DNA of 64,000 nt from Fimbriimonadaceae bacterium (GTDB lineage: Bacteria; Armatimonadota; Fimbriimonadia; Fimbriimonadales; Fimbriimonadaceae), in assembly GCA_019638795.1 (NCBI GenBank), contig JAHBTB010000005.1:62001-126000 (forward strand), in the 5' to 3' direction. The position numbers and the translations under genes were made by a program. The notes under the pieces are model-generated. The model saw nothing but the letters and a program-made list of their open reading frames with translations, was not told the origin of the DNA and ran no database searches. Positions 453-24,194 of the stretch are shown here, one piece after another. Position 1 is the stretch's first letter; each line of letters starts with the position of its first letter.

Positions 453-1250
453 TCAGGCGCCACCCCGGCCACCAGAAACCGGCGAGAACCCGACCGGGAG
501 TTTCTTTCCGCCGCGGGCCGCGCCCGCCGACCCGGCCCCGGTCGAATTGGCGGCCGGAACCTCGGCCGCACCGGCGACACCGACCGGCGGCGCGACCTTG
601 TCACCACGGACAAAGGCGACCAACGTGACGTTGTACGTCGCCGTCAGGGTCGGCGCCGTCCCATTGACGGCCAAGCCGTCGGCGACGGCCAGGTAGTTCG
701 GCATCGACGACCACGCTTGGACGTTGTCCTTGATCTGGTCCCAAGTGCCGGTCACGGTGACCGTGCCCAGGTCGAAGACGCATGCCGGGAATTTGAACCC
801 CGGATAGTTGTAGTAGGACTCGATGATCTGGTCCGGCTCGGTGGGGGGCTGGGGGATCGTCGGCCCCTGGATAACCTTGACCCCACCGGTCTTGACCTGC
901 CGGTTCACCGCCGCCTGAATGCTGTCGCGGAAACGTTGCGAGTCGATGGTGAGGTGATAACGGTCGACGGCGAGGTCGATGCCGCCCATGTTGACGTCGG
1001 CAGGCGGGGTGTGCTCGGCGACGATGGCCTGCCATTCCGCACCGATCCGGCGGACCTCGGCTTCGGCGTCAGCACAGCGCTTCTTGGCCGCGGGCAACTT
1101 GTTGCCTTCGGCCTTATAGGCATCGGCAGTCTCGCGGACCATCTGCGCTTCTTGCCGGTTCGGCAGGAAGTGCCAGAAGAACCCATAGCTGAGCGCGACA
1201 AGGGCGACGGCCAGACCGACGACCAACCAGACGATAGGACTCAGTTTCAT
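453..1250 (-). CDS. pilO: PilO-like type IV pilus inner-membrane alignment protein
   Basis: A 265-aa bitopic protein. It has a short cytoplasmic start, one transmembrane helix (about residues 6-27), a coiled-coil-prone Ala/Glu/Lys-rich stretch (about 30-80), and a periplasmic domain with the ferredoxin-like character of PilO (about 90-215). It ends in a Gly/Ala/Pro-rich tail of roughly 45 residues. PilO pairs with PilN in the inner membrane and connects the PilM ring to PilP and the secretin. The gene is 19 bases after pilN and 23 before the PilP-like lipoprotein, all on the same strand, so co-transcription is likely. Sequence similarity in PilO is generally low; architecture and position carry the call. 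Confidence 0.8.
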   Translation of the reverse strand: MKLSPIVWLVVGLAVALVALSYGFFWHFLPNRQEAQMVRETADAYKAEGNKLPAAKKRCADAEAEVRRIGAEWQAIVAEHTPPADVNMGGIDLAVDRYHLTIDSQRFRDSIQAAVNRQVKTGGVKVIQGPTIPQPPTEPDQIIESYYNYPGFKFPACVFDLGTVTVTGTWDQIKDNVQAWSSMPNYLAVADGLAVNGTAPTLTATYNVTLVAFVRGDKVAPPVGVAGAAEVPAANSTGAGSAGAARGGKKLPVGFSPVSGGRGGA

Positions 1251-1269: not shown

Positions 1270-2208
1270 CTAGTCGGCTTCCTCGCCACGTCGGCCACCG
1301 GCGGCAGGCGCTCCGCCACCGCTCGGCGCAGGGACGCCAGGAGGCCTGGAGCCACTCGGCGGGCCAAACGAACCGGCCCCGGGAGGCCCGAACGGGCCAC
1401 CGGGACGCCCGACACCCGGGATCCCGCCACCGGTGCCGCCACCACCGGCACCACCCAACGACGCGCGGGGATCCGGCGTCCGGATGTCCTTTTGCATGGT
1501 CAAGACCATGGTCACCGTCGACCAACCCGGCATGGACTCTTTGGTCACGCCTTCCTGCCCGAAGCCGCCGACGCCCAGATAGCCCTGCTGTTCGGCCGAC
1601 GCCCGCGCGATCAGCGCGTCGAGTTTGTCGATCGGGTCGGACGGCAAGGGCTGCTCACCCGGCTTGACAACGCTGCCGACCTGGTCAGTCTCCGTGATCG
1701 GTTGACGGACGGGGTCGTCCAGTTGATAGCCCGCCCGTTGGACGTTCGTCACGCCGGGCACCCGCCAAAACGCAAACGCCACGTCGGCGTACTGGCGGAA
1801 GGTCTTCAGGTGGCCGACCAACGTGACCGTGGCCGCATTCTCACCGGCAGGCTGGGCGGTCATCGAAGTCACCCGATAGAAGTCGGGGATGTACTGCATG
1901 ACCTGCTCGTAGAGGTCGACGTAGGTCGAATTGTGCTTTGACATCGCCTTGGCGAGCATCAGGTTGGAGTTGATGACCTCGCCCTTCTTCGCGATCTCGT
2001 CGGCGTGGTTGGCCGTGGCCAAGGCGTCGGCGGCGGCTTGCTTGCTGGAAGCCAAGTCTTCTTTGGCCGCACGCAGGTCGGCTTCGGACGCGACTTTGAG
2101 GAACACGGCGCCGGCGATCGCGGCGACGGCGGCGACGGCACCGATCCCGGCGAAGACCGGGGCCTTGCTCTGCGTCGCGACATGGGTCGGGAGAAGGTTG
2201 AGTTTCAT
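1270..2208 (-). CDS. pilN: PilN-like type IV pilus assembly protein
   Basis: A 312-aa protein that opens with MKLNLLP, matching the short cytoplasmic INLLP motif by which PilN docks into PilM. This is followed by a transmembrane helix (about residues 17-38), an alpha-helical coiled-coil region (about 40-90) and a periplasmic domain (about 95-215). The C-terminal 70 or so residues are extremely Gly/Pro-rich and probably disordered; that tail is longer than in typical PilN (about 180-200 aa) and explains the extra length. The gene follows pilM by 13 bases and precedes pilO by 19. Starting at the ATG at 2208 places the INLLP-like motif at the very N-terminus, as the family requires. Confidence 0.85.
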   Translation of the reverse strand: MKLNLLPTHVATQSKAPVFAGIGAVAAVAAIAGAVFLKVASEADLRAAKEDLASSKQAAADALATANHADEIAKKGEVINSNLMLAKAMSKHNSTYVDLYEQVMQYIPDFYRVTSMTAQPAGENAATVTLVGHLKTFRQYADVAFAFWRVPGVTNVQRAGYQLDDPVRQPITETDQVGSVVKPGEQPLPSDPIDKLDALIARASAEQQGYLGVGGFGQEGVTKESMPGWSTVTMVLTMQKDIRTPDPRASLGGAGGGGTGGGIPGVGRPGGPFGPPGAGSFGPPSGSRPPGVPAPSGGGAPAAGGRRGEEAD

Positions 2209-2221: not shown

Positions 2222-3430
2222 TTAGAAGGCAATGTGGAGCCCGTTGCCGATCGCAACGGCGAAGTCCTGTTTCTCTTGCTGGAGATCATCGGCGTGTTTC
2301 GCCGTCACTGGAAGGCCCCTCGTCGGGTCGAAGAGGGCCGTCGGCACTCCGATGACGGACTGGACGAACTCCGCCACGCCTTTGAGACGGGCTCCGCCAC
2401 CGCAAAGCATGACGGAATCGACGTCGCCTCCTTTGCTCCGGAAGTAGTCGATCGACCGCCGGACCTCGCTCACGAACTCGTCCGCAACCGCGGCCATCGC
2501 GTTCCAGAGCTTCGTCTCTTCGGGGTCAAGGCCGCTTGCAACGGGTGCCGCGGGTGCTTGCGGGGCTTCCTCGGCAGCCGGTGCGGCCGGAGCAGCCTCG
2601 TCCGCGTCGGCGAAGGGGTTGTAGGGCTGGAACTGCTGGGTCGCGAACCCAGAGTCGCCGAAGGGGTTGAACGTCGGCGCCTGGCCAGCCGTCTCGGGAA
2701 TGCGGCCCTTCGCATGCTTCATCGCCTCTGCTTCCGCGAAGGGGACGGCGAGACCGTCGGCGATGGCGCGCGTGAACATCTCGCCGCCGATCGGCACCTG
2801 GCGGGGCATCACGAGTTTGCCGTCGTTGAAAATACTGATCGAACTCGATTTGTGGCCGATGTCGACGATGCAGACCCGCTTGTTGGCCAACTCCACCTCA
2901 TAACCGGTGCGCAGGACGCGGGCCAGACCGAGGGGCTGGACGTCGAGGGCGGCCGGCTTCTTGCCGGCACGCTTCAGGATGTCGCGGATCGTGTTGACGG
3001 TGGACTGCGTGGCGATCGCCATCACCACGTCCATGTTTTGGGCCCCGTTGGCCGGGAAGGAAGCGAAGTCGCTGACCACGTCGCTCTCGGCGAACGGGAT
3101 GTTGCGGGTGATCTCCCACTCCATGTGCTGCTTCAGCTCGGCGTCCGACATCACCGGGACTTCGAGGGTGCGGACCACGACGGAACCTTGGCCCGACAGA
3201 GAGACGACGGCGTCGCCGACACTGACGCCGGCCTGGGCGCAAACCTGCTTGAGGACGTCGCCGACCACCACCGAATCATGCACGCCGACATGGTCGACCG
3301 CCCCTTCTGGCGTCATCGCCATACCCAGGGCCGTGATCGTGGGTTGCTTGCCGGCCAATTTGACCTCCGCGACTTTAATGGTCTGACTTCCAATGTCGAC
3401 CCCGACGATGCTCGTGTACTTCTTGGCCAT
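2222..3430 (-). CDS. pilM: PilM, actin-like type IV pilus assembly ATPase
   Basis: A 402-aa cytoplasmic actin/FtsA-fold protein that forms a ring around the pilus motor and binds the N-terminus of PilN. The phosphate-1 motif is visible near residues 10-17 (VGVDIGSQ) and the phosphate-2 region near 187-200 (VCIVDIGHKSSS). The end holds the adenosine motif MLCGGGARLKG. Unlike usual PilM (about 350 aa), it has an Ala/Pro-rich, acidic low-complexity insertion at about residues 245-300 containing two NPF tripeptides. It is the first gene of the pilMNOP unit, preceded by a good promoter (TTGACA, 18-base spacer, TATCAT) and by a terminator that isolates it from the upstream giant gene. Confidence 0.95.
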   Translation of the reverse strand: MAKKYTSIVGVDIGSQTIKVAEVKLAGKQPTITALGMAMTPEGAVDHVGVHDSVVVGDVLKQVCAQAGVSVGDAVVSLSGQGSVVVRTLEVPVMSDAELKQHMEWEITRNIPFAESDVVSDFASFPANGAQNMDVVMAIATQSTVNTIRDILKRAGKKPAALDVQPLGLARVLRTGYEVELANKRVCIVDIGHKSSSISIFNDGKLVMPRQVPIGGEMFTRAIADGLAVPFAEAEAMKHAKGRIPETAGQAPTFNPFGDSGFATQQFQPYNPFADADEAAPAAPAAEEAPQAPAAPVASGLDPEETKLWNAMAAVADEFVSEVRRSIDYFRSKGGDVDSVMLCGGGARLKGVAEFVQSVIGVPTALFDPTRGLPVTAKHADDLQQEKQDFAVAIGNGLHIAF

Positions 3431-3637: not shown

Positions 3638-3658
3638 GAGGCTTCCATACGGTCGACG

Positions 3659-6600
3659 TCAAGGAGACGGGGGCTGGGGAGCCCACTTCGGCGCGATGGT
3701 CTGGAAGTACACGTCCGGCACACCTGCCCTGGCGCTCGACCAGAACATCCACACGAGCGGGGGCCGGCGGCGCGTCGGGTCAAGCGGGTTGAACGCGATG
3801 TTGTACGGGTCCAGGGCCAGCGACATGTCCGATTCGTTGGCGGCCTGCTCGATCGTGACGGCCTCCTCGGCCCGCTCCGTGATCAGTCCGACCCGCGGGA
3901 TGTTGGTCGCCGACGTGCCGACCACGATGTTCGGGACGAGGTTGCCGTTGCCGTCGACGCCGGTGTAGACGACACGCACGGGCCGGTCTTCCATCACCGA
4001 GGTGAAGTACACCCGTCCGTTGACGGGGTCGACCTGATAGAACGGTGCCTCCGGCGTCGCGCCGATGAACATGACCTGGAACTGCACCAGGGCCCCGTTG
4101 GCCCCGACGGCGACCGGAGTCGGCAGGTTGATGCCGTACCGGAGCGTGGTCAGGAACGGACGGGTCGCCTGGGATCCGTCGGCCGAGGTCTTCGTCAACG
4201 AGAGCACGTAGCGGTCGTAGCGGACCGGGTCGTTGTTCGCGGGCCGGGCGTTGACACTGTTGCCCCAGAAGTTCAGGTCTCCGATCAGGTTCTCGTCGGC
4301 CCGGTTCACGTCGTTCGTGGCGTAGATGCCGACAAACCGTTCGTCAAAGACTCCCGAGACGCTCCGATAGTTGCCGCCTCGGGCCGCGTTGACGCGGACG
4401 AAGGTCGGGCTATAGGTGATGAAGAGCTGCATGTTCCGCGGGACGACCGCTCCCGACAGCTTGACCGTGCCGGCGTTCGCGTCCATGTAGACCTTGCCGC
4501 CCAGTCTGCTGTCGTAGACCAGTTCCCCGTCGGTCCGGCTCACCACACGTTCGGGCGAGATCGGGTCGATGACGTCGGTCAGTGTCGCGTTGCCCGAACC
4601 GTCCACGCTGAGGTACTTCAGCCTGATGCCGGCAAGACCGGCCTCGGACATCGACCACTGCACGCCGGGGGCGAAGTAGGTGCCCGTCGCCGGGTCGACC
4701 TCGAGTTTGTCGGTGCGGTTGCTGAAGGGCAGAGTGCGGACAGACCCACCGGGCCCACCGGTCGGGGCACCGGAGACCGGGCTGGCCGCCAACCGGCCGA
4801 GGAACGTGTCGGCGAACTGGCGCCCACGGAGCTTGGCCGTGAACATCAGGTCGATGCGCGCCGCGTCGTTACGGCCCTGGTAGCGCCGCAAGATGGCGTT
4901 GGGAGCGCCGACGTTCTCGAACTGGTCACCCAGGGAGACAGACCTCACGCCCGTCCAGTTGGAACCGTCGAACGTCGAAGTGTAGATCTGGCCGAGGCCG
5001 TTGCTCGTCCCCGTGTAGAACACGGTCGCGGACGAGCCGGCTTGGACCACGCTCGGCTTACTCTTGGTCGACGTCGTGTCGAACGGCATCGCGCTGAGAC
5101 CGTTCAGGACGACCCCGCCGCCGCCGAACCCGAGGTTGGCCAGCATGACCTGTTCGACCGTCGACCGGTCACCGCCCGGGCCGACCTTCGTCCCGCGGCC
5201 GACAAAGGCCAGATACTGCTGGTTCACGTCGGCACGGGAGAGTGTCGGAGACTGGAGCGGGTTGTAGGCGCCGCCGGTCGGGAAGGACGGAGACCCGAAC
5301 TGGAACCCGGCCGGTCCGCGGCTCATGTCCATCGACTCGCCGGCACCGAGGGTGAACAACGTGTTGAAGTTCACGACGCCCTCCAGCGGGAAGAGCAAGG
5401 ACGGGCCGAACCATCGGCTGTCCGGGGTGCCCAGGCCAGAGGAGACCGGCAAGGCGTTGTCCAGGTCGTTCATCGGGCTGTGGTCGGCCGACGGGTTCGT
5501 GCGGTCCCACACCGGAGTCGTGCCGCCGTTGGCCGAGACGAAGATCCGCCATGTGTCGCCACTGGCGAGCGAACCCGCGGTGCGGCCCGGCGTCAGCCAG
5601 TCAGGCAGGCCGGTCGCGTTGGAGCGGCGGTTCGACGCCCAGGCGACGGCCAACTGGCCACTGCCATGGCGGACGGCGGTCGGCTGGGTGTTCGACCACG
5701 TGAACGCCTCGTTCCCCGCCAGGAGATTGTCGACGTTCGGCGCCGCCTTCCGCGTCGGGGTGTTGGTCAACCGGGCCTCGCGGACGTTGAACTTCAGGGT
5801 GATCGCCGGGTCGGCGTACGGCTCGCTGACCGCCGGGTCGCTGGCCGAGGGGCCGAGCGACGGATGGTCGGCGTCCCCGTCGTTGCCGTCGTTGTCAAAG
5901 GCATACACCTTGCGCTGATAGGTGCCACTGGGGGTGCCGACCGGGACAGCCACGCCGACCTTCGGGTCGCCGGACTCGAAGCCCGCCGTCGTCGGCACGA
6001 GGGTGCCGCCCGAGACCCGCAGGTTGGCGTTGGCCCGGAACACCGGGTTGCGGCTCATCCGCGTGGGAGCGGCGTCGCCCGGACGCGGCTTCTGCAAGAC
6101 CATGCGGTTGTCGACACCGGCCCTGAACGGCACGCTGTACAGCGGGTCAAGGTCGGAGATCATGTTCCGCTTCGCGTCGATCCACGCAAGTTCCTGCATC
6201 TGCGGGCCGTACAGTTCGACGGTCCGATAGACGCGGGTGAAGCCGTTGATCTTGTCGAACTCCTGGGCCAGACGGACGTTCAGCAGGTTCACGTTGCCCT
6301 GGTTGAGGACGGTGAACGGCTGGAACATCGCCGTGTTGCCGGTCGTGTAGGCCGGGTTGTACGGACGGAACGCGGAGTTCGGGTCGCTGGGTGCGATGGC
6401 GCCGTTGTCCGGCCCGCCGCTGACATGACCGTTGTAGCCGCCGCCGCTAGGCAACGAGCCAAGGTCGACGGTCGGGCTGTTCGTCGACAGCCGCCGGTCC
6501 TCGCCGACACGCGCACCGAGGGCAAAGCTGCGGTAGGCGTCTTCGGTGCCGAAGCTGTTGTTTGAACCGCCCACGTAGACGATCTGGCGTCCCCGGTAGT

Positions 6601-9600
6601 CCGAGGCGTTCGCCGGTTGGTACCGCGGCACGTCGACACGGATGTCGAACGGCGTGTCCACCAGCGTCCGCTGCATCTGGTTCTCGTAGCCGGCCTTCGT
6701 GTTGTAGGTCGTCCGGTCGGCTTCGGTCCAGGCCGGGCCCTCAAGGGTGACCCGGGTCAGGAGCGGGTTCGAAACGCTGCCGGAGCCGCCGACCGCGACC
6801 GACATGGACCCACGCCCGAGGTCGGGGTAGTCCAAGCTGCGGTTCGGCAAAGCCCACGGATAGTCTTCGAACTGCCCGTACTTCCAATTCGCCTTGTTCG
6901 AACCCGAGTTCAGCGGGCGGTCGACGCCGAGCTGGGTCGCCGGGTCATAGACCGGCTGGCCAGGGGCGGCGGCATCCGGCGGCAAGGTGCGGGTGTCGAC
7001 CAATGGCATCCAAGCGAGGTCGTTGCTCGACATTTGGACGTTGGCGAGCCCCGTGCCCGGGCCCGTCAGCAGGGAGACCAGCGACCGGTCGCGGACGTTC
7101 ATCCGCGCGACGGCGGTAGAGCCGTGGCTGACGTACTCGCCGGTGGTCGACGGGGTCGTCCCGAGGAACCCGCCCGGCTCGATGCTGTCTGTACCGCCGA
7201 ACACCGGCTTCAGGAACTGGTTGGTCGGGCCGCCCACGGTGGCGAGGCCGACTCCGGTGTCGAGGCCGTTGCTGCCGTTGACGACCGCGTTCGGCTGGGT
7301 CGCGTCGATCGTGTTGCCCACGCTGTTCGGCAGGAAGCCGTTGACGGCGTCACGGGTCGGGAAGACCACGGCCAGCGGGTTCGCGACGACCACGTCGCCC
7401 ACCGTCGGGCTCGGCGACTTCGGCGTGGTGCGGAGACCCGCCTCGGCCCCGCGGACGGTGCCTTGCACGGTCAGCGTGGCCCGCACGCGGACGAAGTTTC
7501 CGCCCGGCTGGGTGCCGGCCTGGCCGGTCGGCATGAACGTGACCTTATGGAGGCCGATGCCACCCTGGTTGGCGGGCGCGCCAGTCACGTTGCGGACGAT
7601 GTCGGGGAACCGGGCCTGGACGCGCTGGTTCGAGTACGTGTTGAACTCAAGCTGGTATCCGGCCGTCGGCGAGTCGGTCGTCGACGGGATGTTCCAGACC
7701 ATGACGTAGAGGGTCTCGCCCACCTCGAAGTTGCGGCGTTGGATGCCTCCACCGGTCGCCGCGGTTTGCACGGCGGCGTAGGTCAAGGAGCCTTGGTTGG
7801 CCTTGGAGAACAAGGACTGGTACTCGTCCGGCGACACGAGGACGACGTTGGTCGACGAGATGAAGCTCAGGTCTTGCGCGGTCACCCCGTTGTTGGGCCC
7901 GTCGGTGATCGGCGATTGGCCGGGCGTGATCGGAGCCGTCGAGTTGTCGTCGTCCACCGACGAGAAGGCGTAGAGGAACCCCTTGGAGTCGCCGATGTAG
8001 AGGTGGCTTCGGTTCGCCGGGAATCCCGGCTGGTTCGGCCATCCACCGGACGCAAAGGACGCGACCGGGTTGCTGCCCTGCATGGTCAGCACCCAGTTCC
8101 GGTGCGAACCGTCGGAATAAGTCCGGCCGTCGGCGAGGAATCCCAGGCACTCGCCGCGCCGGTTGGCGACGACGATGGTCGGCTGGGCGTCCTCAAGCAA
8201 GATCGGCGTCGCCGGGTTCGGTTGGCGCATGTGGGTGAAGACCAACGACGAGTCGCAACGGGTGCTGACCTCACTGGTCTGCCAGCGGACATTGCCGTTC
8301 ACCGGGTCGAGCGAAAGCAAGACCCCCCGTCCGTCGACGAAGAACACCGAGTCCCAGTTGCCCGGGTCGGCCGGGTTGACCAACGAACCGCTGACCGCCG
8401 CCGGGCTGCACGAGCCCATGTAGCCAAGGGCCGTCGCCGTGTTGTCGACGGTGCGCCGCCAACTCAGGACACCCGTGTCGAGGTCAAGGGCGTTGATCTC
8501 CCCGAGGGTCGGGTCGGCCATGGTGGCCGCGCCGAAGAACACCTTTCCGAACGCGATGGCCGGAGTCGCTTCGACCTGGCCGAAGTTCGAGATCGCGGCC
8601 GGATATTGCCAGATGACGTTCGTCGTCTTGCTTACCGGGTTGCCAGCGGCGTTCAGGGCGAGGATTTTGCCCGCGACCGCGACGATGACGGCGTCTTGGC
8701 CCGCCACGACGGCTCCGGCGACCGAAGCCTTGACCGGCGGCAGGGCCGCGGCAAACGGGGTCGTCGGGGCGTCAGGCCGGAAGTCGTCGGGGTAAGTCCA
8801 GCGGCGTCGGGTCGTGCCGTCGCCGCGGCCCGCCATCTCGATGCAATAGACGCGGCCGTTGTCCGCCCCGATGTAGAGCAGGTCGACTGCGCCGACTTTC
8901 ATGACCAGCGCCGAACTCAGGTTGAACTTGGTCGGCATCGTCGCGACCCGCCCGTCTTCGCTCAGCGAGGCGTTCGGGTCGGTGGCCGAGACTTCACTCG
9001 GGTACGTCCAGAAGACCTTGGGTTGCGAGCCGGTGGTCGGGTCGCCGTGGGCGTCCATGCACCGGATATGCCCCGTCTCGTCGGCGGTGACGACCACGTC
9101 GCGGGTCGCCAAGGTGGCACCGTCGCGGACATCGGCCGAGACCATCGCCGGGGTCGAGCTCATGGACAGGTCGGACTGGGTGACGAAGCGCACCGCGTCG
9201 GCCACGACCCGTCGGCCCTCGATCACGTCCTGCGCGACCGAGCTATGGTCGGTGACGACGACGGAAAGGGGCATCGCCGCGGAATGCTCGGCGCCTTGCG
9301 TGCCGACGCCAGGCAGACGGATCCAACCGCGCTGGGTGGACTCGTTGATCGTCACCGAGTCGATTTGGACACCACCGCGGAACACCTGGACCTCGACGTT
9401 GGTGGCCAGGTCGACGGCCGGGGCTCCCGGCGGGACATAGACGTCGATGTAGTAAGTGCCGTCGGCAAACTCGTCGGCCTTGAACCGGACGCCACCGGTG
9501 ACCGAAGCGCTCACCGGGCTGGTCTGATAGGTCGATCCCAACGGACTGTACGAGAGGTCGATTCCCTGGATGAAGTTGCCCGATGCCGACGTGAGGGGGT

Positions 9601-10792
9601 TCAGGTCGTCGACCACGCGGCGGACTTGGGCCCGCGTGTCGGCCGTGCTCGGGCCGACGATCCAGTCGGCCAGTTCCGTGGCGAACCGCTCCTTCTCAGC
9701 GGTCGAGACGTCGTTGGGCCGTCGCCCAGGCCACGACCACACCATGTTGCGGCGCAGGGGCGCGAAGGCGTCGACGACCTCGCCGTTGTGGGTGAACGAG
9801 GTGACTTCGCCGACGGTGAACGTCTGGCCCAGGGACCCGACCGTGACCGGCTCGTTCCGAGCCGAGACGACGCGCTGCGGGAACACGGTGGGGCCACCGA
9901 TGTACGGGGCGTTCAGGAGTTCACCGACCACGGGCGAGGCGACATAGCCCCCCGTGAGCGAACCCGAAGCTTCGGCGCGGACCGCGTCGGCATAGACCAA
10001 CTGGTTGACCGGGTTTGCACCTGGGTCCAGGAACTGGCCGTCGGTGCCCCGAGGCACGGTGTTGTAGAGCCTGACCGCGATCTGGCCCAAGGCGTCGGCG
10101 GTGTAGAGCTTGGTCTCCGCCTCGCCAAACCGGACGAACGAGCCGCCGACGGTGGAGTCCACGATGCGGACGTCCGTCCCGTTGGCGTCGACAATGTCAA
10201 AAACGTAGTACCGCTGGCCGTAGTGCAGCGGGTTTGCGCCCGAGACCGGCGTGGTCGGCACGGTGTTCGTCCCGCCGACGGGGACGCTGGCGGAGACGGC
10301 GTACTCCGCCCCGGGGATCAGGCCGGTGATCGTCCACCGGTAGGTGGTCGTCGCGCCGGTGCGGGCGTCCGTCGAATTGAGCGGCTGCGCCACCGTGGTC
10401 GCCCAGCGGTAGGGCGCGTGGAGCACGTCGGTCTGGTAGTAGCCCGTGGCCAGGTCGATGAAGTCGTTGCCTGCCGCGATCGGCGCGGGGTTCACCCACG
10501 AGAGCGGGGGCGACTCCACCGTGTTCGGGGCGTCGTTGTCGACGACGCCGCCCAAGGAGAAGATCGGGTCCCACCACCGCAAAAACCCTCGGCCCGCGTT
10601 GTTCCACACGGTCTCCGCCACCACGGTGCCGGTCTGGACCGTCGCCTTGCCGGTGCGCTGGGCGCCTCCCCGGTGCGTGCGGAAGTCCTGCGCCCCGGCG
10701 AAGATCGCCAGCAGGGCGGTGGCAGCCACCAGAAGCGGGCCAAGCTTGGCCTTGCCTTTGGTGGTCGTCGATGATTGGCGGCGAGGTTCCAT
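3659..10792 (-). CDS. Giant exported beta-propeller protein, candidate T4P-associated adhesin (2377 aa)
   Basis: Start chosen at the ATG at 10792: it follows the upstream stop by 7 bases and puts a basic segment plus one hydrophobic helix (about residues 17-34) at the N-terminus, either a signal anchor or a signal peptide. Two segments (about 200-270 and 445-540) end in VADAVRF/YADAVRAE-type motifs, characteristic of golvesin/Xly-CBD-like beta-sandwich domains. About 545-960 is a PQQ-like beta-propeller with repeated ALDLDTGVLSW and SLDPVNGNVRW blades. The middle (about 960-1500) is Thr/Gly/Pro-rich and Ig-like in feel. About 1600-2000 has BNR-like blades (AVAWASNRR, VFYTGTSNG), and the C-terminus ends with a similar VWMFWSSARAG element. 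A DNDGNDGDAD stretch near 1660 could bind calcium. It is the last gene of the minor-pilin unit, the position of PilY1 in classical operons. Function is inferred from position; no sequence identity to PilY1 is claimed. Confidence 0.85.
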   Translation of the reverse strand: MEPRRQSSTTTKGKAKLGPLLVAATALLAIFAGAQDFRTHRGGAQRTGKATVQTGTVVAETVWNNAGRGFLRWWDPIFSLGGVVDNDAPNTVESPPLSWVNPAPIAAGNDFIDLATGYYQTDVLHAPYRWATTVAQPLNSTDARTGATTTYRWTITGLIPGAEYAVSASVPVGGTNTVPTTPVSGANPLHYGQRYYVFDIVDANGTDVRIVDSTVGGSFVRFGEAETKLYTADALGQIAVRLYNTVPRGTDGQFLDPGANPVNQLVYADAVRAEASGSLTGGYVASPVVGELLNAPYIGGPTVFPQRVVSARNEPVTVGSLGQTFTVGEVTSFTHNGEVVDAFAPLRRNMVWSWPGRRPNDVSTAEKERFATELADWIVGPSTADTRAQVRRVVDDLNPLTSASGNFIQGIDLSYSPLGSTYQTSPVSASVTGGVRFKADEFADGTYYIDVYVPPGAPAVDLATNVEVQVFRGGVQIDSVTINESTQRGWIRLPGVGTQGAEHSAAMPLSVVVTDHSSVAQDVIEGRRVVADAVRFVTQSDLSMSSTPAMVSADVRDGATLATRDVVVTADETGHIRCMDAHGDPTTGSQPKVFWTYPSEVSATDPNASLSEDGRVATMPTKFNLSSALVMKVGAVDLLYIGADNGRVYCIEMAGRGDGTTRRRWTYPDDFRPDAPTTPFAAALPPVKASVAGAVVAGQDAVIVAVAGKILALNAAGNPVSKTTNVIWQYPAAISNFGQVEATPAIAFGKVFFGAATMADPTLGEINALDLDTGVLSWRRTVDNTATALGYMGSCSPAAVSGSLVNPADPGNWDSVFFVDGRGVLLSLDPVNGNVRWQTSEVSTRCDSSLVFTHMRQPNPATPILLEDAQPTIVVANRRGECLGFLADGRTYSDGSHRNWVLTMQGSNPVASFASGGWPNQPGFPANRSHLYIGDSKGFLYAFSSVDDDNSTAPITPGQSPITDGPNNGVTAQDLSFISSTNVVLVSPDEYQSLFSKANQGSLTYAAVQTAATGGGIQRRNFEVGETLYVMVWNIPSTTDSPTAGYQLEFNTYSNQRVQARFPDIVRNVTGAPANQGGIGLHKVTFMPTGQAGTQPGGNFVRVRATLTVQGTVRGAEAGLRTTPKSPSPTVGDVVVANPLAVVFPTRDAVNGFLPNSVGNTIDATQPNAVVNGSNGLDTGVGLATVGGPTNQFLKPVFGGTDSIEPGGFLGTTPSTTGEYVSHGSTAVARMNVRDRSLVSLLTGPGTGLANVQMSSNDLAWMPLVDTRTLPPDAAAPGQPVYDPATQLGVDRPLNSGSNKANWKYGQFEDYPWALPNRSLDYPDLGRGSMSVAVGGSGSVSNPLLTRVTLEGPAWTEADRTTYNTKAGYENQMQRTLVDTPFDIRVDVPRYQPANASDYRGRQIVYVGGSNNSFGTEDAYRSFALGARVGEDRRLSTNSPTVDLGSLPSGGGYNGHVSGGPDNGAIAPSDPNSAFRPYNPAYTTGNTAMFQPFTVLNQGNVNLLNVRLAQEFDKINGFTRVYRTVELYGPQMQELAWIDAKRNMISDLDPLYSVPFRAGVDNRMVLQKPRPGDAAPTRMSRNPVFRANANLRVSGGTLVPTTAGFESGDPKVGVAVPVGTPSGTYQRKVYAFDNDGNDGDADHPSLGPSASDPAVSEPYADPAITLKFNVREARLTNTPTRKAAPNVDNLLAGNEAFTWSNTQPTAVRHGSGQLAVAWASNRRSNATGLPDWLTPGRTAGSLASGDTWRIFVSANGGTTPVWDRTNPSADHSPMNDLDNALPVSSGLGTPDSRWFGPSLLFPLEGVVNFNTLFTLGAGESMDMSRGPAGFQFGSPSFPTGGAYNPLQSPTLSRADVNQQYLAFVGRGTKVGPGGDRSTVEQVMLANLGFGGGGVVLNGLSAMPFDTTSTKSKPSVVQAGSSATVFYTGTSNGLGQIYTSTFDGSNWTGVRSVSLGDQFENVGAPNAILRRYQGRNDAARIDLMFTAKLRGRQFADTFLGRLAASPVSGAPTGGPGGSVRTLPFSNRTDKLEVDPATGTYFAPGVQWSMSEAGLAGIRLKYLSVDGSGNATLTDVIDPISPERVVSRTDGELVYDSRLGGKVYMDANAGTVKLSGAVVPRNMQLFITYSPTFVRVNAARGGNYRSVSGVFDERFVGIYATNDVNRADENLIGDLNFWGNSVNARPANNDPVRYDRYVLSLTKTSADGSQATRPFLTTLRYGINLPTPVAVGANGALVQFQVMFIGATPEAPFYQVDPVNGRVYFTSVMEDRPVRVVYTGVDGNGNLVPNIVVGTSATNIPRVGLITERAEEAVTIEQAANESDMSLALDPYNIAFNPLDPTRRRPPLVWMFWSSARAGVPDVYFQTIAPKWAPQPPSP

Positions 10793-10799
10793 ATGCTGC

Positions 10800-13700
10800 T
10801 TATTGCCGTTCGGCAAAGACGGGGGACACCAGTCCACGGGTGCCGGACACTGGCGGGAGCTCGAATTTCACGCTGGTCGCGGTGAACCCAAGGTTTGGTC
10901 GGTTGAACCCGAACCCGGGGTCAAGGGGCCCCGTGGCCCCCGACGCGAAGCTGCCGTCGACCAGCACGACCTCGCCGTTGAACTCCGCGTTCGAACCGAA
11001 CTTAGTGCCGAAGTAGTTGTTGACGATCAGGACGTCGCCCGACTCCAACCGGCGGGCATAGGTGGGCCGGAACTGGGCGGGGTTACCGGAGAGGTCGGCC
11101 GCCGAGTACGGGCCCGCCGTCCGAGGGCGGCGCATCCCGACGTAGGCTTCCTTGGGCAACATCCACCGGGCGCGCCACACCGGTGCGCCGGGGTTCGACG
11201 TGTCCTTCACGATCTCGTACACGCCGGAGCTGACCGTCACCATGATGGCGATCGTCGGTGTCCCGCCCATGTCCACGTAGCGGACCGTGGTCGACCTCAG
11301 TCCCGCGAATTGATCCACGTGCTCGTCCTGGTTGGTGGACGGCAAGTTGAACGAGTAGGTTCCCGATCCAGGCGGGTTTTCACCTAAGAACTGGCCGGCC
11401 ACCGCGCCGGCGACGGTGAACTGCTTGATCACCTCGGTGTTGCCACCGTCGTAGAGGACGATGCCGCCGAAGCCGTTGTGGCGGTCGACGTCCTGGCCGG
11501 TGCCGTCGAGGCCGACGGTCACCTTGCCCGGCTGGATGTTGCCGAAGCCGAACGCGAACACGGTGTGGCGGCCGGCGCCCGAGCCGACGTCGACTCGACC
11601 GATGCTGTTGTAGCTGTAGAGCTTGCCGGAGAACTCCTCGGGCGTGTGCCAGACGATGACGCTCTGCGCCGTCGTGTAGCCGTCTCCCTCGTCATCGGGG
11701 ACCCCGCCCGCGACCTTGTAGCGGACCGGACCGAGGACGCGGCCGAAGCTGTCCAAGCGGTAGCGATCGACGACTTCGATCACCCGGTTGTTGCCGGAGT
11801 CGGCGACCAAGACGTGGTCCCAACGCTCGGGCGTGGGGGCCTGGCGCAGGACCTCGCCCGGGAACAGCGCGGCGACCTCGGCGATCGACTTGGTGTCGGT
11901 GAAGGTCGCGATGTCGCGCGGGTTCCTCAGGCTGAGCGACTCGTTGTCGACCATCCCAGCCGGGACACGCTGCGGGTGCAGGCGGAGCCGGTTGATCGTG
12001 CGGAGCTCGCGGCCCGCGGCGTCGATCTTGATCACCTGGTCCGATCCGGCGTCGACCACCCAGTATCCGTTGGAGTCGGCGGGATAGACACGCACGGGGT
12101 CGGAGAGCGGACGCAGGTTGTTGGCGTTGGTCACGGGCTGGCGTGGTCCGGCCGACAGGGTCGTGTCCGTCGTCCACAGCGGGTTGCCGTTGGCGTCCCA
12201 CCGCCCGATGCGGCCAGCGTCGGCGACCAAGAACTCACTGCGGCTGAAGGCATGCAGCGTGCTCTGGCCCAGGACGCTCAGCACGTCGCCGCCAGCCCCC
12301 ATGGTCAAGGCGACCGGGTCGGGCAGGGTGGCCTGCAAGATACGGGTGCGGAAGTCGCTGACGTCCTCCATGCCGTTGGTCTGAGGCCAGCGGAACGCCG
12401 GGTCGATGCTCACCCCGACGAAGCTGTTCGGAGCAACGACACCCTTGACCGCGTAGAGCTGGTTCTCCCACGGCTTGAGGGAGTTGCCAAAGAGGTAGGG
12501 GTCGTTGCCCGCGATCTGAGAGTCGATGCCGTAGATCAGGCCGTTCGTCGGCAAGGGGAACGACGGGACGCCGGACACGAGCAACCCGGGCAGGATGCTC
12601 GCCCCGCCGATGAACATCGTCTGGCCGGTGACGAGCGGCCCGGTGGACGCCGCGTAGCCGTTGAGCACGGTGTACCACTGCAGGTGGCTGAACTTCCCTG
12701 CCGCGTAGCCAGGCGTGAAGTTCGCGCCACCGTACGTCCACGTCGCCGACGCTTCCGGTTGGACAAGCTGGTCGGTGGACGTCGTCCCCCGCTTGATGAC
12801 CAAAGGCAAGTTCGTCGAGATGCACGAGGACATCGTGCCGTTGGACGACGCGGTCAGGCTGTCCAGTGTGACGCGGACGCGGCTTGACCCAGGCGACCGG
12901 TTGAGGCTGACCTTGCTACCGCCGGTCACGACCGCACTGAACGCGGTCGGATTGGCCTGGTTCAGGCTACGGGCGAGGTCGGGCTGTTGGATGGTCAGGA
13001 GCGGCTCAGGCTGGCCCGCGGCCGGGGCCGGGCTCTCGACCTCGAACTGCACCGGATCGGGGTTCGCTTTGAACGCGAACACCACCGAAGTCGGGACGCC
13101 TTGGCCGAACACCGTCTTGACGCCACTGGCGACGCAATACATGGTGTCGCCGATGACCGCCGGGGCGGACGCGAACCGCAACCTGGTGATCGGGGTGTCC
13201 AGGATGAACGAGCCGCCGAGGAAGAGGAGCTTCTTGACGAGGTCGTCCTCGTCGGTGACGCACGGCGGATACGTGACGTTGCCTTGGCCCAGCACGTTGA
13301 ACCCGGTGCTGATCGAACTGTACAGGTCGTAGCGGGTCTTGACGTCGAAGACGCCGCGACCGCTCTCGACAAGGTTGTAGAAGGTGCCGCCGGGCACGCC
13401 CGCGTTGGTCGTTGTCGAGACCGTGACGCCGATGTGGCCGTCTGTGCCGAGGGCTGGGCTACCGATGACCTTTCGCGAATACAACGAGTTGTCGACGAAG
13501 TTGAGGTTGCCACGGACATAGCTCCGCGGATCGACCGTCGAACTCTGGCTCCAGTCGATGGTGTAGTCGATCCGGAACCCGATGTCGTCGGCCGGGTTGG
13601 TCGTCGCCTTGCCGTCCCAGTCAAGACCCGAGGCGACGCCCGCCGCCGACAGGGAAAGTTCGACCGTGCCCGGACTCGGTTGGATCACCGTGTTGGTGAA

Positions 13701-15548
13701 ATACGTCTCCATCTCGGCCTGGGTCAGCGGCGCGCCGTTGGCGCGGAGGGCGGTGACGTGGAGGCCGAACGGGCTGCTTCCGAGCAAGACGGGCAGGTTG
13801 GTGTACTTCGCCCGGAGGTTGATGGTCACCTGGGAGCCGGTCCGGGAGACTTGGCCCGCGCCAGGGGACTCACCGCGGGTGCTCAGCCAGGTGCTGCTGA
13901 TGCCGCACGGCCGGTTGTTGGCCGGGTCGGAGTCCATCGCGGTGTAGACGACGCGGTCGGCGCCGTTCGAGTTGTCGCGGATGGGGATGTAGCCGACGGT
14001 CGGTGTCGCCGTGGGCGTGAAGAGGCTGCCCACGCCCTTGACCAGCCAGGGGTTCGACGTGCTGCCGGGGTTCTCCCCGTCGATGACGCTCACGGCCCAG
14101 AGGCGGCCGGAACTGTCGCTCGACGACTTGTCGGCGACCACGACAAAGTTCTCGTGGACGGCCGGCGCGAAGGGTGTGCCGAAGGGCACGGTGCCCCCTG
14201 CGGGTGCGCTGATGGACTTCAGGAGCGTCCCGGTCTTGAGCGAGAAGACACGCAGGGTGTCGTCCGAGCCGAGCACCCAGATCTGTTCGGTGTCACCGAG
14301 GGTGGTGTTCGGCACGTCGACGATCACCGGTGACGAGAGGGTCGCCCCCGCGTCAACCGTCGGCCACAGCTGGACATATGGGTCGGTGGCGTTGGCCGGG
14401 GTGCCCTCGGACGGGTTCGCGAGGAACGCCGCGATGCGGGAGCCGCTCGTGACGACGACTTTGCCCTTGGCGACCGCCGGGGTGTTCAGGCTGGTGTAAG
14501 ACCCGCCGACCTTGAACCGTTCGATGAGCGGGGCAGGGACGGTTCGCCGCACACTGTTCGAACGGCGGGCGCCGCCCGCCTGGCTGTTGAAGTCACTCGA
14601 CAGGTTGACGAGGTTAAACGCGAACTTAGCCGCCGCAGAAAACCAGTTGTCGTTGGGCGGCAGAAGTGAAGTGAAACCGGTGTTCGCCGACCAGCCGGAA
14701 CCGGGCGAGTTGGGGTCGAAGCCACGGTTCAAGTTGGCGGTGACGCCACGGGTGGTGATGACGACGCTTCCGGAGCCGATGCGGGCCAGACCGACCACGC
14801 CGCCGGCCGAGGTCGCGACGACATTGCCCATGCGGGGCAACCCTTCGGTGAAGTCGGCCATGACCTGGTTCACCGAGGTCGTCGGCAGGGCGAGGACCAG
14901 GGTCTGGGCGACACTCGGGTCGCGCAGGTAGTTGATGTCGGTCGTGTTCAGCGCGTTCGGATAGCGCAACAACTGGTTGCCGAGGTCAGCGAAGAGGTTG
15001 CCGTTGTCCGAAGCCGTGGTGAAGAGGACGGGGCCCGAGTTGGCCGGGTCGATGCCGAAGGCTCCGCTGGGCCACAAGTCGATCCAGAGGATGCCGCCCT
15101 GGTCCACGAACCGGCGGAGCTTCTCACGCTCGCTAGGGGTCAGGGAGAGGCCGTTGCGGACGGTCAGGGAGAGGACGTCGAACTGGGCGAGGGTCGACTC
15201 GCTGACGTCGCCGAGGACGACCTCCCAGTAGGGGGCGTCACGCTTGGTCAAATGCCGAAAGCTGTTCGCGGGCATGCCCCAGCGTTGCGCGGCCGCGGCG
15301 GTGAGGGTCGTCTGGCCGATGGGGTTGTCGAACGAGAGTCCCGCCGGTTTGACCCGGGTGTCCCGGTCAAGCTGGCCCCAGACGTGCGGCGTCGGGTTGT
15401 AGAGTTGGCCCCCGTTGACCTGGCTCGCGACGAGGAGGACACCGGCCTGCACCGACTTCGTCTTGGTCGCATAGGTGACCGGTTGGGCGAGGCCAAGGCA
15501 CGCGGACGCGGCCAGGGCCAGGCTCAGGACATAGCGTGCTACGTTCAC
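10800..15548 (-). CDS. Secreted multi-domain beta-propeller protein in minor-pilin operon (1582 aa)
   Basis: GTG start at 15548 overlaps the upstream TGA (GTGA). A Sec signal peptide is clear (MNVARYVLSLALAASACLGLAQ, cleavage probably after GLA). Residues about 90-290 contain a segment (VRNGLSLTPSEREKLRRFVD, then GGILWIDL) typical of the class-I glutamine-amidotransferase-like/DUF4159 fold that is common in secreted proteins. About 340-530 carry PQQ-like propeller blades (VVVTSGSRIAAF, WVLGSDDTLRVFSL). About 1180-1400 carry NHL-like blades (VLVADSGNNRVIEV). There is no membrane anchor after the signal peptide. It is translationally coupled to the PilX-like gene upstream and only 7 bases from the 2377-aa gene, so the two giants are made together. 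Role unknown; surface or pilus-tip adhesion is an inference. Confidence 0.85.
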   Translation of the reverse strand: MNVARYVLSLALAASACLGLAQPVTYATKTKSVQAGVLLVASQVNGGQLYNPTPHVWGQLDRDTRVKPAGLSFDNPIGQTTLTAAAAQRWGMPANSFRHLTKRDAPYWEVVLGDVSESTLAQFDVLSLTVRNGLSLTPSEREKLRRFVDQGGILWIDLWPSGAFGIDPANSGPVLFTTASDNGNLFADLGNQLLRYPNALNTTDINYLRDPSVAQTLVLALPTTSVNQVMADFTEGLPRMGNVVATSAGGVVGLARIGSGSVVITTRGVTANLNRGFDPNSPGSGWSANTGFTSLLPPNDNWFSAAAKFAFNLVNLSSDFNSQAGGARRSNSVRRTVPAPLIERFKVGGSYTSLNTPAVAKGKVVVTSGSRIAAFLANPSEGTPANATDPYVQLWPTVDAGATLSSPVIVDVPNTTLGDTEQIWVLGSDDTLRVFSLKTGTLLKSISAPAGGTVPFGTPFAPAVHENFVVVADKSSSDSSGRLWAVSVIDGENPGSTSNPWLVKGVGSLFTPTATPTVGYIPIRDNSNGADRVVYTAMDSDPANNRPCGISSTWLSTRGESPGAGQVSRTGSQVTINLRAKYTNLPVLLGSSPFGLHVTALRANGAPLTQAEMETYFTNTVIQPSPGTVELSLSAAGVASGLDWDGKATTNPADDIGFRIDYTIDWSQSSTVDPRSYVRGNLNFVDNSLYSRKVIGSPALGTDGHIGVTVSTTTNAGVPGGTFYNLVESGRGVFDVKTRYDLYSSISTGFNVLGQGNVTYPPCVTDEDDLVKKLLFLGGSFILDTPITRLRFASAPAVIGDTMYCVASGVKTVFGQGVPTSVVFAFKANPDPVQFEVESPAPAAGQPEPLLTIQQPDLARSLNQANPTAFSAVVTGGSKVSLNRSPGSSRVRVTLDSLTASSNGTMSSCISTNLPLVIKRGTTSTDQLVQPEASATWTYGGANFTPGYAAGKFSHLQWYTVLNGYAASTGPLVTGQTMFIGGASILPGLLVSGVPSFPLPTNGLIYGIDSQIAGNDPYLFGNSLKPWENQLYAVKGVVAPNSFVGVSIDPAFRWPQTNGMEDVSDFRTRILQATLPDPVALTMGAGGDVLSVLGQSTLHAFSRSEFLVADAGRIGRWDANGNPLWTTDTTLSAGPRQPVTNANNLRPLSDPVRVYPADSNGYWVVDAGSDQVIKIDAAGRELRTINRLRLHPQRVPAGMVDNESLSLRNPRDIATFTDTKSIAEVAALFPGEVLRQAPTPERWDHVLVADSGNNRVIEVVDRYRLDSFGRVLGPVRYKVAGGVPDDEGDGYTTAQSVIVWHTPEEFSGKLYSYNSIGRVDVGSGAGRHTVFAFGFGNIQPGKVTVGLDGTGQDVDRHNGFGGIVLYDGGNTEVIKQFTVAGAVAGQFLGENPPGSGTYSFNLPSTNQDEHVDQFAGLRSTTVRYVDMGGTPTIAIMVTVSSGVYEIVKDTSNPGAPVWRARWMLPKEAYVGMRRPRTAGPYSAADLSGNPAQFRPTYARRLESGDVLIVNNYFGTKFGSNAEFNGEVVLVDGSFASGATGPLDPGFGFNRPNLGFTATSVKFELPPVSGTRGLVSPVFAERQ

Positions 15549-18500
15549 GGGTTCACGTCTCCAAAGAAGGCCAGGGTCGGTGAGACCGGCAGCCGCGGCA
15601 TCGGGGGCAACAGCCTCCCCGCCGCGTCGGTCCTCACCGGGACGAGGGCCGGCGACACCGCGTCGGCCGGGACGCCCGCCGTCGCGAGCATCGGGTCATA
15701 GATCAACTTCAGGTTGGGCGCCACGGACGCGGCGACGTTGGGGTCGACCGTGCCGAGGTGCATCTGCGGCGAGTAGGTGCCCGTCGCGGCGAACCGGCGC
15801 GGGATCCAGCCCCACTTCTTCAGCCACTCGGCCTGTTGGCTCACCGGCGCAGGCATGTTCTGGCTGATCGCGCCGACGATGGTGATCCGCACGTCGAGCG
15901 GCTCCCCGTAGAACGGCACCTCGGGCGAGTTGCCGTACTGCTGGTAGCGTTCAAGCTGGGCTTGGGCGAGGGCGTTGCCGCCGCCGTAGTTGACGGTCGT
16001 CGTGTTACCGCCGAGGGCGACCACCCGGCTCTCGAACCGGGGCCTCGTGTCCAGCGGGTTCGTGTTGAACCAGTTGCCCGGGATCACGAAGAACGAGCCT
16101 TCCTGGGCGTAGAGGCACGCCTCGACCCTGACGTCGAACGGGGCCACCGCGGTCCGGCTGACGAGCCAGTTCTTCGTCGCACCGCCGCCGACCGGGTTCA
16201 ACCGCAGGTCGAAGAAGGTCGGGTCCTGCATCGACAGCGCGTACAGGCCCTCGGGGTTGCTGCCCGTCGAGACCAGTTTCCGCGTCAGCGGGCTGTAGGC
16301 GTTGAAGTACGAGCCGTTGAGCGGGCTGTAGAGGGGCGTCGCCACGGTCATGAACTTCGGATAGGCGTTCACACCGGCGTCGCCGAGCCCGAGCACCGGG
16401 ACGTTCCACGGCGCGGGCGGGGCGGGTGGCGGCGGCGGGGTGAAGAACGACCCGGCGTCGTTGAAGTACTCCGTGGCATAGACTCCCGACGAGCCCATGA
16501 AGTTGTACCGGGCGGGCCACAGGTAGGTGCCCGTCGACGGGGAGCTGTCGGCAAAGGTGCCGGTCGAGATGTCCAGCGAGGCAAAGGACGGGCCACCGTC
16601 GTCGGCCGCGACCGAGAACAGCAACCGCGAGACCATGGGACGACCCGCCGCGGCACCGCCTTCGGCGTAGTACCGCATGTACGGCAACCAGTTCGACGGG
16701 TTGGCGCTGACCGGGTTGAGCAGGAACTGCGCCATGAGGCGGAGGTTTGAGCGGGTGCCGTCGAGTTCGACCGGGTTCGGCGTGTCGGCCACTCCCTCGC
16801 CGCTCTTGGCCTGCGGGCTCTCGCCCGGCGCCGGCGCAAAGAACTGCGTCGGGTTCAGGGTCACGTAGTCCTTCGCGAGGATGGCGAGGGCCGAGTGGCT
16901 CGGACGGCCCAACGTGGAGGCGTTGCCGGTGGCGGCGTCACGACCCACGACCCCTCGGACAAGGCTGCCTTCGATGTAGGCGGTGCCCATCGTCACAAGG
17001 GTGACTTGCACGTCGGTGGGGATGACGCCCCGGGTGCGGACGTCGCCCGCGGCCAGGATGACACCGTTGAACTCCTGGGCCACGGCGCGGCCGTTGACCG
17101 TCCAAGACTTGAACGCGTTGTCAGAGATGTTGGGGTTGAAGTTGGGGGCCTCGACGTCGTTGACGATATACGTCTTGTTGTCCGCCGCGACATAACGCGT
17201 CCAGTAGTGGACCGAACTGACGTTGCCCCGGGGCTGGCCGTTGACGGGGTCGGTCCACGTCGTGCCGCCGGTCTCCGGATAGCGCCAGAACTTGTTCCGG
17301 GAGCGCGAGTCGCGGGTGATGACGAACCCGTCCGGTGTGAAGAGCACGTAGCTCGCCACGGGGATGTAGTACGGGCCCTGCCACCCACGGCTGTTCGCGT
17401 TGTTGGGGTTCAGCCAGTCGTTGGGGAGCGCCTTCGACGGGTCGAGGTTCTCTCGGTCTTCCTCCGTCTGACGGTTGCCCCGCTCCGGCGAGTCGATGTA
17501 AACACCTCGGCCGTAGCCCCAGGAACCGACGTTGAAACCGTCGGCGTTCAGGCGGCCGTTCGAGCGGGTGAGGTTCTCGTAGCGGTTGCGGTTGTCCGCC
17601 GGGTCCAGGCGGTCGATCAGCGGGGGGTCTTTGTAGGGGACGCTCCGGATGTAGCCGTCGGCGTCAGTCCCTTTGTTGCTGTCGACCAGGGCCCCTTTGG
17701 CCGTGGTGAACTGCGGGTTGTCCGACGACATCGCGTTGCCGACCAGGGTCATCGAACCGGCGGCGTCGAGCTGGAACTGGTCCGCCGCTTTGTTATAGAG
17801 GAAGCTCTTGATGGAGAGGCTCGCCGCGTCGTTGCCGGGGGTGACCTTGCCGGCGACAAGCAGCTTCTCGTCGAGGGCACGGTTCAGGACAAAGCTCGTC
17901 GAGCCGTAGAACTTGACGTCGGCGTTGCTGTAGAGCGAACTCAGACCGGGGACCTGGGCCCAGTCAGCGGTGCTGCCCGGCATAGACGTGGCGCCGAAGT
18001 CTTCGCCCAGAGCGTTGGGGATACGGACGTCGGTGCCTTCGTAGGTCACGCCGACGTTGGTGTTGTTGTTCCAGAACGGCGACCCAGGAAGGGTGGACGG
18101 CGCCCCGATCTCGGCGGCGCGGGTCTGCTTGTCTTTGTTCGTGATGAACATCGCCGACTCCACGATGCCGATGGACGCGAGGGCGGTCAGCTTCTTGCTG
18201 TCGGTCACCTGGGCGTCGGCCGCCTTCAGTTTGCCGACGGCGGCGGCGAGGGCGGCCGCGTCGGGCAGGCCGAGGATCTGGACAGAGTCACCGAGCAACA
18301 GGCTCGGGTCGACCCGACCGTCGGTCGTCGTCTGGCCGCTGCGGCCCACCGACTCGATGATCGTGTAGGCGCGTGCGGCGCCAGGCTGGCGCAGGCTGCC
18401 GGTCGGAGCGGCGAACGCGTCATAGTCGGACGGTGCGTAGCGCACCCGGACCAAGGCCCGGCCACGGCTGAAACTCAGCTTGGAGTAGGGCCCCAAGTAG

Positions 18501-18883
18501 TCGGGCCCGCCCAGATCGGTGATCTGGATCGTCGGCCGCGCGGGGTCGGGCGTCACCTGCATGTAGGTGCCGGGCCTCGTGTAGTAGGCGTCCGGGTCGC
18601 GGGTGAAGTTGCCGCTCATCGCCGGCGGGGTCGGGTCGGGCCTCCAGTCAGCGCCCAGCGCCGAGTTCAGCATCTGGCTGTGGGCGTACTCGGCCCCGGC
18701 ATGGGCCAAGTCTTCGGTCACGGTGCGCTTGGCCGAACGGCTCGCGCCGCTGATGTTGCCGCTGACCACGCCCGCAAAGGCCAGGCCAAGGATCAGCAAG
18801 ACCGCCAAGATGATGATCGCGATGACCAGGGTCTGGCCGGCGTGCCGCCGATGCTGAATCGGTCTCCGTCGCTGGATGTCCAT
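15545..18883 (-). CDS. Very large PilX/GspK-like minor pilin (1112 aa)
   Basis: The N-terminus is basic and His/Arg-rich, then GQTLVIAIIILAVLLILGLA, a prepilin-like hydrophobic helix lacking the Glu at position +5, as in GspK and many PilX proteins that cap pseudopilin complexes. The remaining roughly 1050 residues are a secreted domain with repeated Asn/Gly/Pro-rich beta segments and a Pro-rich run (PPPPPAPPAP) near residue 800. Typical PilX/GspK proteins are 180-330 aa, so this is several times larger. An in-frame TTG at 18892 is an alternative start; the ATG at 18883 was preferred because GAGG lies just upstream. It sits 15 bases after a 726-aa prepilin gene and overlaps the next gene by 4 bases. 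Confidence 0.8.
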   Translation of the reverse strand: MDIQRRRPIQHRRHAGQTLVIAIIILAVLLILGLAFAGVVSGNISGASRSAKRTVTEDLAHAGAEYAHSQMLNSALGADWRPDPTPPAMSGNFTRDPDAYYTRPGTYMQVTPDPARPTIQITDLGGPDYLGPYSKLSFSRGRALVRVRYAPSDYDAFAAPTGSLRQPGAARAYTIIESVGRSGQTTTDGRVDPSLLLGDSVQILGLPDAAALAAAVGKLKAADAQVTDSKKLTALASIGIVESAMFITNKDKQTRAAEIGAPSTLPGSPFWNNNTNVGVTYEGTDVRIPNALGEDFGATSMPGSTADWAQVPGLSSLYSNADVKFYGSTSFVLNRALDEKLLVAGKVTPGNDAASLSIKSFLYNKAADQFQLDAAGSMTLVGNAMSSDNPQFTTAKGALVDSNKGTDADGYIRSVPYKDPPLIDRLDPADNRNRYENLTRSNGRLNADGFNVGSWGYGRGVYIDSPERGNRQTEEDRENLDPSKALPNDWLNPNNANSRGWQGPYYIPVASYVLFTPDGFVITRDSRSRNKFWRYPETGGTTWTDPVNGQPRGNVSSVHYWTRYVAADNKTYIVNDVEAPNFNPNISDNAFKSWTVNGRAVAQEFNGVILAAGDVRTRGVIPTDVQVTLVTMGTAYIEGSLVRGVVGRDAATGNASTLGRPSHSALAILAKDYVTLNPTQFFAPAPGESPQAKSGEGVADTPNPVELDGTRSNLRLMAQFLLNPVSANPSNWLPYMRYYAEGGAAAGRPMVSRLLFSVAADDGGPSFASLDISTGTFADSSPSTGTYLWPARYNFMGSSGVYATEYFNDAGSFFTPPPPPAPPAPWNVPVLGLGDAGVNAYPKFMTVATPLYSPLNGSYFNAYSPLTRKLVSTGSNPEGLYALSMQDPTFFDLRLNPVGGGATKNWLVSRTAVAPFDVRVEACLYAQEGSFFVIPGNWFNTNPLDTRPRFESRVVALGGNTTTVNYGGGNALAQAQLERYQQYGNSPEVPFYGEPLDVRITIVGAISQNMPAPVSQQAEWLKKWGWIPRRFAATGTYSPQMHLGTVDPNVAASVAPNLKLIYDPMLATAGVPADAVSPALVPVRTDAAGRLLPPMPRLPVSPTLAFFGDVNP

Positions 18884-18898
18884 GTTCCTCAAAGCGCC

Positions 18899-21079: not shown

Positions 21080-21084
21080 GTCGT

Positions 21085-23193: not shown

Positions 23194-23242
23194 ACAAAAA
23201 CCGTCCAATCTGCAGACCGCACCGGCTGCTTTCGTGTTCCCG

Positions 23243-24136: not shown

Positions 24137-24194
24137 AGTGTCCTCTGATTCTTTGCCGCAGACTCTGACGACATCTACAGCCGATATGTTCCGC

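Follow-up and report, generated by a model that had tools for sequence, protein, structure and literature searches.

P2 and P1, two giant propeller proteins encoded side by side in the type IVa pilus (T4aP) locus of a Fimbriimonadales (Armatimonadota) genome, are proposed with moderate confidence to be Sec-exported non-pilin subunits that do the work of PilY1 as a priming and tip complex. The role of PilY1 is probably split over the two proteins. On this reading, the T4aP loci of a whole phylum lack a recognizable PilY1 and carry a conserved two-protein replacement, which allows the requirements for a pilus tip (i.e., a propeller, a calcium loop, and docking on a Glu5-less PilX) to be tested independently. 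P2 and P1 are also adhesin candidates for Armatimonadota, a phylum in which pili had been recognized only as fimbriae for attachment (Fimbriimonas, PMC4072686). No earlier publication tying P2 or P1 to PilY1 was found in the literature searched.

Organization of the Pilus Locus

The window, a stretch of 64,000 nucleotides, lies on contig C5 of a Fimbriimonadaceae genome of 2.70 Mb. Its closest named relatives are Fimbriimonadales/Armatimonadetes MAGs, with isolate SZAS-4 as the top match (73% identity). The genome harbors here a complete T4aP locus on the minus strand, to which all coordinates below refer unless stated otherwise. The gene order is pilB, pilT, pilC, pilD, a GspG/PilA-like pilin, the PilV-, PilW-, and PilX-like pilins, P2, P1, pilM, pilN, and pilO, such that P2 and P1 lie between pilV–pilW–pilX and pilMNO.

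Profile searches identify the extension ATPase pilB (27934..29715), the platform protein pilC (25382..26614), the retraction ATPase pilT (26623..27855; TIGR01420, 507.8 bits, cut-off 319.1), and pilM (2222..3430; TIGR01175, 188.6 bits, cut-off 133), while the prepilin peptidase pilD (24195..25262) was named from reading the sequence. The pilN-like (1270..2208) and pilO-like (453..1250) genes have no Pfam match and are assigned by position and by families kept in relatives. Past the window edge after pilO, two ORFs carry STN and Secretin domains (PF00263, E 5.6e-34). The secretin appears to be encoded by two ORFs on contig C5 just beyond the window start (L155), with the STN/PilQ N-terminal match at 16938–17870 and the Secretin domain at 15249–16901. 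Because PilT and PilM exceed their NCBIfam cut-offs, the locus is assigned to the retractile T4a type, and judged by its gene content (PilT, PilM, and a secretin) it is that of a retractile type IVa pilus. PilM was dropped as a marker of type IV pilus (T4P) presence, since its profile is too broad and also matches FtsA and MreB. Elsewhere in the genome, a tandem array of three pilT-family genes and another pilT/pilB pair occur without P1 or P2 (G000:C1:35311-38497 and C1:93142-96833).

Four pilins precede P2. The GspG/PilA-like pilin (23243..24253), assigned by profile match, carries a dockerin/EF-hand-like loop, DLNGDGIVSNADD, that is unusual for a pilin. The PilV-like minor pilin (21085..23208) is recognized by a sub-threshold match to TIGR02523 together with PF07963, and the PilW-like minor pilin (18899..21208, likely start ATG 21079) by PF07963 and as a conserved neighbor. 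The PilX-like protein (15545..18892) is a giant minor pilin of 1115 aa with beta-helix-like stretches in its sequence and a prepilin site, G|QTLVIAI, without Glu5. Its match to PilX_N (PF14341; E 0.079, 13.4 bits) falls below the cut-off of 25.5. Nearly all of 41 PilX-like sequences begin their mature part with G|QTLxIA or close variants, position 5 is never Glu, and the family is detected in 207 of 221 genomes of the phylum. The tip pilins PilX and GspK likewise lack Glu5 (PMC7541494).

The GTG start of P2 and the PilX stop share 4 nt, the likely ATG of P1 (10792) lies 7 nt past the P2 stop, and 228 nt separate P1 from pilM. The coupling to minor-pilin genes and the position before pilM that the first-pass annotation had described are thereby confirmed, as are its two giant ORFs of 1582 and 2377 aa, both of which are open, the latter length corresponding to the ATG at 10792. 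Opposite P1, the plus strand holds antisense ORFs at 3473–6565 (1030 aa) and 6617–10774 (1385 aa), as is usual at 67% G+C.

Architecture of P2 and P1

P2 (10800..15548, 1582 aa) is an open reading frame with relatives, placed directly after pilX, and is predicted to be secreted; its start, read by eye, resembles a signal peptide ending in A-Q. Residues 23–337 (14538..15482) form an alpha/beta domain of the DUF4159/DUF4350/GLMA_2nd-like kind, on the basis of PF13709 and the secondary structure of the model. PF13709 (DUF4159) matches all 24 P2 members, and the MIDAS pattern DxSxS has no conserved instance in the P2 N-termini. The domain occupies the place of the N-terminal vWFA domain of PilY1. 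Residues 338–1095 (12264..14537) fold in the AF2 model (pLDDT 82) as a BamB/PQQ-like propeller with large insertions, whose nearest structures among the matches listed are 8-bladed BamB, YxaL, and designed propellers (VIA Z 18–19). Residues 1096–1582 (10803..12263) make up an NHL-like propeller, recognized by blade motifs such as VADSGNNRV and by profile matches to Pizza6 (E 2.9e-6) and to NHL domains (best 5e-4).

P1 (3659..10792) is also predicted to be secreted, with a signal-peptide-like stretch ending in A-Q at its start (read by eye). It measures 2377 aa from ATG 10792, and the frame is open to GTG 10837, which would give 2392 aa. A golvesin-C-like domain at about residues 408–552 (9182..9616), its position mapped from relatives by alignment, is found in 16 of 22 P1 relatives (PF25275, best 1.3e-27). 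It is followed at about residues 560–1000 (7838..9160) by a PQQ/BamB-like propeller with PDB profile matches to BamB and PQQ enzymes; PF13360 matches at E 2.2e-7 in P1 itself and in 21 of 22 relatives (best 1.1e-22).

The C-terminal half of P1 was modeled by AF2 with a pLDDT of 83 and a pTM of 0.78. Residues 1634–2387 (3677..5938) adopt a six-bladed propeller of the sialidase fold in this model (VIA Z 15.1, rmsd 3.4 over 310 residues). The Asp-box pattern was not found in the P1 family apart from one chance-like match outside the sialidase-fold domain. Sialidase activity of P1 was rejected on this ground, and since the family lacks Asp-boxes, a binding role is likelier than catalysis for this propeller. 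P1 and P2 together thus comprise four propellers. The PQQ-, NHL-, and BNR-like blades and the golvesin domain first read from the letters are all recovered, as PF13360, NHL profiles, a sialidase/BNR-type fold, and PF25275, respectively.

In 32 of 39 relatives, a GRGD sequence occurs at the same position (residue 671) in the PQQ propeller of P1. RGD was rejected as a clue to integrin-type adhesion, as the P1 instance lies at a conserved propeller site and is likelier structural, and RGD in P2 occurs at chance level.

Conservation and Gene Order in Armatimonadota

Among 61 near relatives, P2 is present in 59, in a single place per genome and with few copies split or broken, and P1 in 52. In one relative (L066, G033) P2 is broken into three ORFs, and in another (L061, G025) an in-frame TAA splits the gene in two; either sequencing error or decay may account for this. 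P2 profiles match 175–176 of 221 genomes drawn across Armatimonadota; the scan used a family-level profile, whose reach extends to close relatives only, within Armatimonadota, and a phylum-wide profile raised the count little, from 175 to 176. In about a fifth of the phylum genomes, P2 is absent, has diverged too far, or falls into gaps. No P2, P1, full-length PilX, or strong PilM match is present in two 1.5-Mb genomes from the window's family, although pilT is kept in both and pilB in at least one.

Regions around P2 were fetched from 40 order-level loci (annotated by phmmer) and from 20 loci of other families of the phylum. The PilX-like gene precedes P2 in 40/40 and 20/20 of these, respectively, often with an overlap of 1–4 nt. 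The claim that the pair holds the position of PilY1 is therefore upheld for P2, which follows pilX directly in all 60 loci, and homologs lying commonly away from T4P loci were looked for and not seen. At the order level, the slot after P2 is filled by P1 in 38 of 40 loci and by a 2084- or 2122-aa ORF in the remaining two; pilM comes next in 33 of 40, usually after about 100–400 nt. At the phylum level, P1 is recognized in 12 of 20 loci. In five others, one giant ORF or a pair of ORFs stands between P2 and pilM, with weak matches to the P1 profile in four of these; pilM was found after the P1 slot in 9 of 20. Overall, 57 of 60 loci have P1 or another giant ORF at this place. A chance arrangement is excluded because the same gene order recurs in other families and in most of the phylum. 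One locus (L100) lies on a contig titled Methanoregulaceae archaeon; transfer to archaea was rejected, and the record is taken as probably a mixed or mislabeled bin.

Relationship to PilY1

PilY1 proteins are characterized by PF05567, by an N-terminal vWFA domain in some, and by calcium motif 1, Dx(D/N)xDGxxD, which is needed for piliation (PMC13190605). Their genes cluster with fimU–pilV–pilW–pilX, and the protein docks on the Glu5-less PilX and sits at the tip (PMC7541494). The profile search against PilY1 called for by the first-pass annotation came out negative, with no PF05567 match among 24 P2 and 22 P1 members (E<=0.1) or in this genome (E<=10). PF05567 was likewise not matched in the 221 phylum genomes, where its absence is weak evidence, as control genomes gave no match either. 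Among the PDB fold and profile matches listed there is no PilY1 structure, a result that does not exclude the fold itself; compared with the seven-bladed modified propeller of PilY1 (3HX6), the P2 propeller, a confident model, has its nearest listed matches in designed proteins and 8-bladed BamB.

The calcium motif Dx(D/N)xDGxxD is found in 44 of 58 P2 proteins, versus 0.27 expected from composition shuffles. The enrichment holds in the order-level set (31/38 vs 0.17 expected) and in the phylum-level set (13/20 vs 0.10 expected). Of the 31 order-level proteins with the motif, 30 have it in one shared alignment column within the BamB-like propeller (about residue 378). It is absent from P2 of the window and of a same-genus relative, and is also missing in some other genera. 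The corresponding stretch of the window's P2, at about residues 370–395, reads AAFLANPSEGTPANATDP. The calcium loop is lost in the window's genus. EF-hand-like patterns are common in secreted proteins, and an independent origin of the loop is possible.

P2 resembles PilY1 in its anatomy, and membership in the PilY1 family is not supported by the PF05567 profile. Of the PilY1-like interpretation, position, propeller content, and the phylum-wide link to T4P stand, and PF05567 membership does not. P2 and PilY1 may be analogous, or homologous too distantly for profiles, with convergence or homology as the respective source of the likeness.

Proposed Function and Alternatives

Gene content, order, and overlap across the phylum, the folds, the calcium motif, and the Glu5-less PilX are observed, whereas export, complex formation, a tip position, calcium gating, and adhesion of P2 and P1 are inferred. 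In the hypothesized scheme, P2 (and P1) would dock on the giant PilX, which together with PilV and PilW would prime the assembly of the pilus. The priming complex, with P2 and P1, would then exit via the secretin and come to stand at the tip of the pilus. There, surfaces could be bound by the propellers, by the golvesin-C domain, and by the alpha/beta domain. The P2/P1 complex would remain on the pilus while PilT drives retraction. In most Armatimonadota, the PilY1-type calcium loop in the P2 propeller probably gates function, as in PilY1. Counting against the tip placement is size, as PilX, P2, and P1 add up by residue count to about 0.5 MDa, which is large for passage through a secretin. The likeness to PilY1 is weakened by the missing PF05567, by the lack of a PilY1 among the listed PDB matches, and by the window's P2, which is without the calcium motif.

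A more tentative proposal, which we consider possible yet doubtful, is that Armatimonadota have a PilY1 of their own making. An unrelated propeller pair would have taken over the priming and tip role before the radiation of the phylum, converging on the same EF-hand-like calcium loop within a propeller. If this is true, the independently invented tip would weigh about 0.5 MDa and carry four propellers, mounted on a giant PilX.

P2 alone could instead be the PilY1-like tip subunit, with P1 a separate surface or outer-membrane adhesin of the same operon, located near the pilus exit or on the cell surface. P2 is indeed the protein that is coupled to pilX and bears the calcium motif, and outside the order P1 is more divergent and sometimes missing or represented by a giant ORF that matches it only weakly. 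However, P1 directly follows P2 in nearly all loci, and the two are kept or lost together in the genomes examined, leaving this division of labor unlikely. It is less probable still that P2 and P1 are exoproteins or glycan-binding effectors secreted by a T4P-like machine, similar to the T2SS substrates pushed by GspK. PilY1 itself has been compared to a T2SS substrate (PMC7541494), and the sialidase fold and golvesin-C domain of P1 suggest contact with glycans, but there are no Asp-boxes and no match to an enzyme family, the linkage of P2 and P1 is fixed to a single place across the phylum, unlike that of variable exoenzymes, and PilT is present. Least probable of all is a role as BamB-like periplasmic or outer-membrane scaffolds for the secretin or alignment complex, for although BamB is among the best fold matches of P2 and pilMNO and the secretin come right after both genes, the coupling is to pilX rather than to the secretin gene, a gap of about 100–400 nt usually follows P1, and golvesin-C and sialidase folds better suit contact with the outside.

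Comparison with Known Systems

The priming and tip complex proposed for P2 and P1 is closest to PilY1/PilC. Like the latter, P2 would be a secreted non-pilin (its start reads by eye as a signal peptide), and its gene follows pilX in a minor-pilin operon; an alpha/beta-type domain precedes its propeller, as vWFA does in PilY1 (PMC13190605), and the propeller of the P2 family contains the calcium motif. However, there are several differences. P2 and P1 have no PF05567 match, the N-terminal domain of P2 is DUF4159-like and not vWFA/MIDAS, P2 of the window's genus is without the calcium motif, P2 has an extra NHL-like propeller, and a second giant protein, P1, adds two more.

BamB and PQQ propellers share the propeller fold with P2 (Z 18–19) and the PQQ_2 domain with P1. 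In contrast, P2 and P1 are giant multi-domain proteins with large insertions, and the gene context of BamB is absent. The bacterial sialidases and pseudaminidase (3h6j, 2w38) have the six-bladed fold seen at the C-terminus of P1 (Z 15, rmsd 3.4 over 310 residues), whereas P1 is about 9% identical to them and has neither Asp-boxes nor a catalytic family match.

On the pilin side, the PilW-like protein has a match in the prepilin N-terminal part of the NCBIfam models for Verru_Chthon cassette proteins (TIGR02596/TIGR02599), although the match covers the N-terminal helix only and lies below the cut-off. ComZ of Thermus thermophilus is a tip-type minor pilin of T4P with a large accessory domain (PMC6561018). 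The giant Armatimonadota PilX, with its beta-helix-like stretches, is comparable to ComZ as an enlarged minor pilin; ComZ differs from P2 and P1 in being itself a pilin with a beta-solenoid and not a propeller protein.
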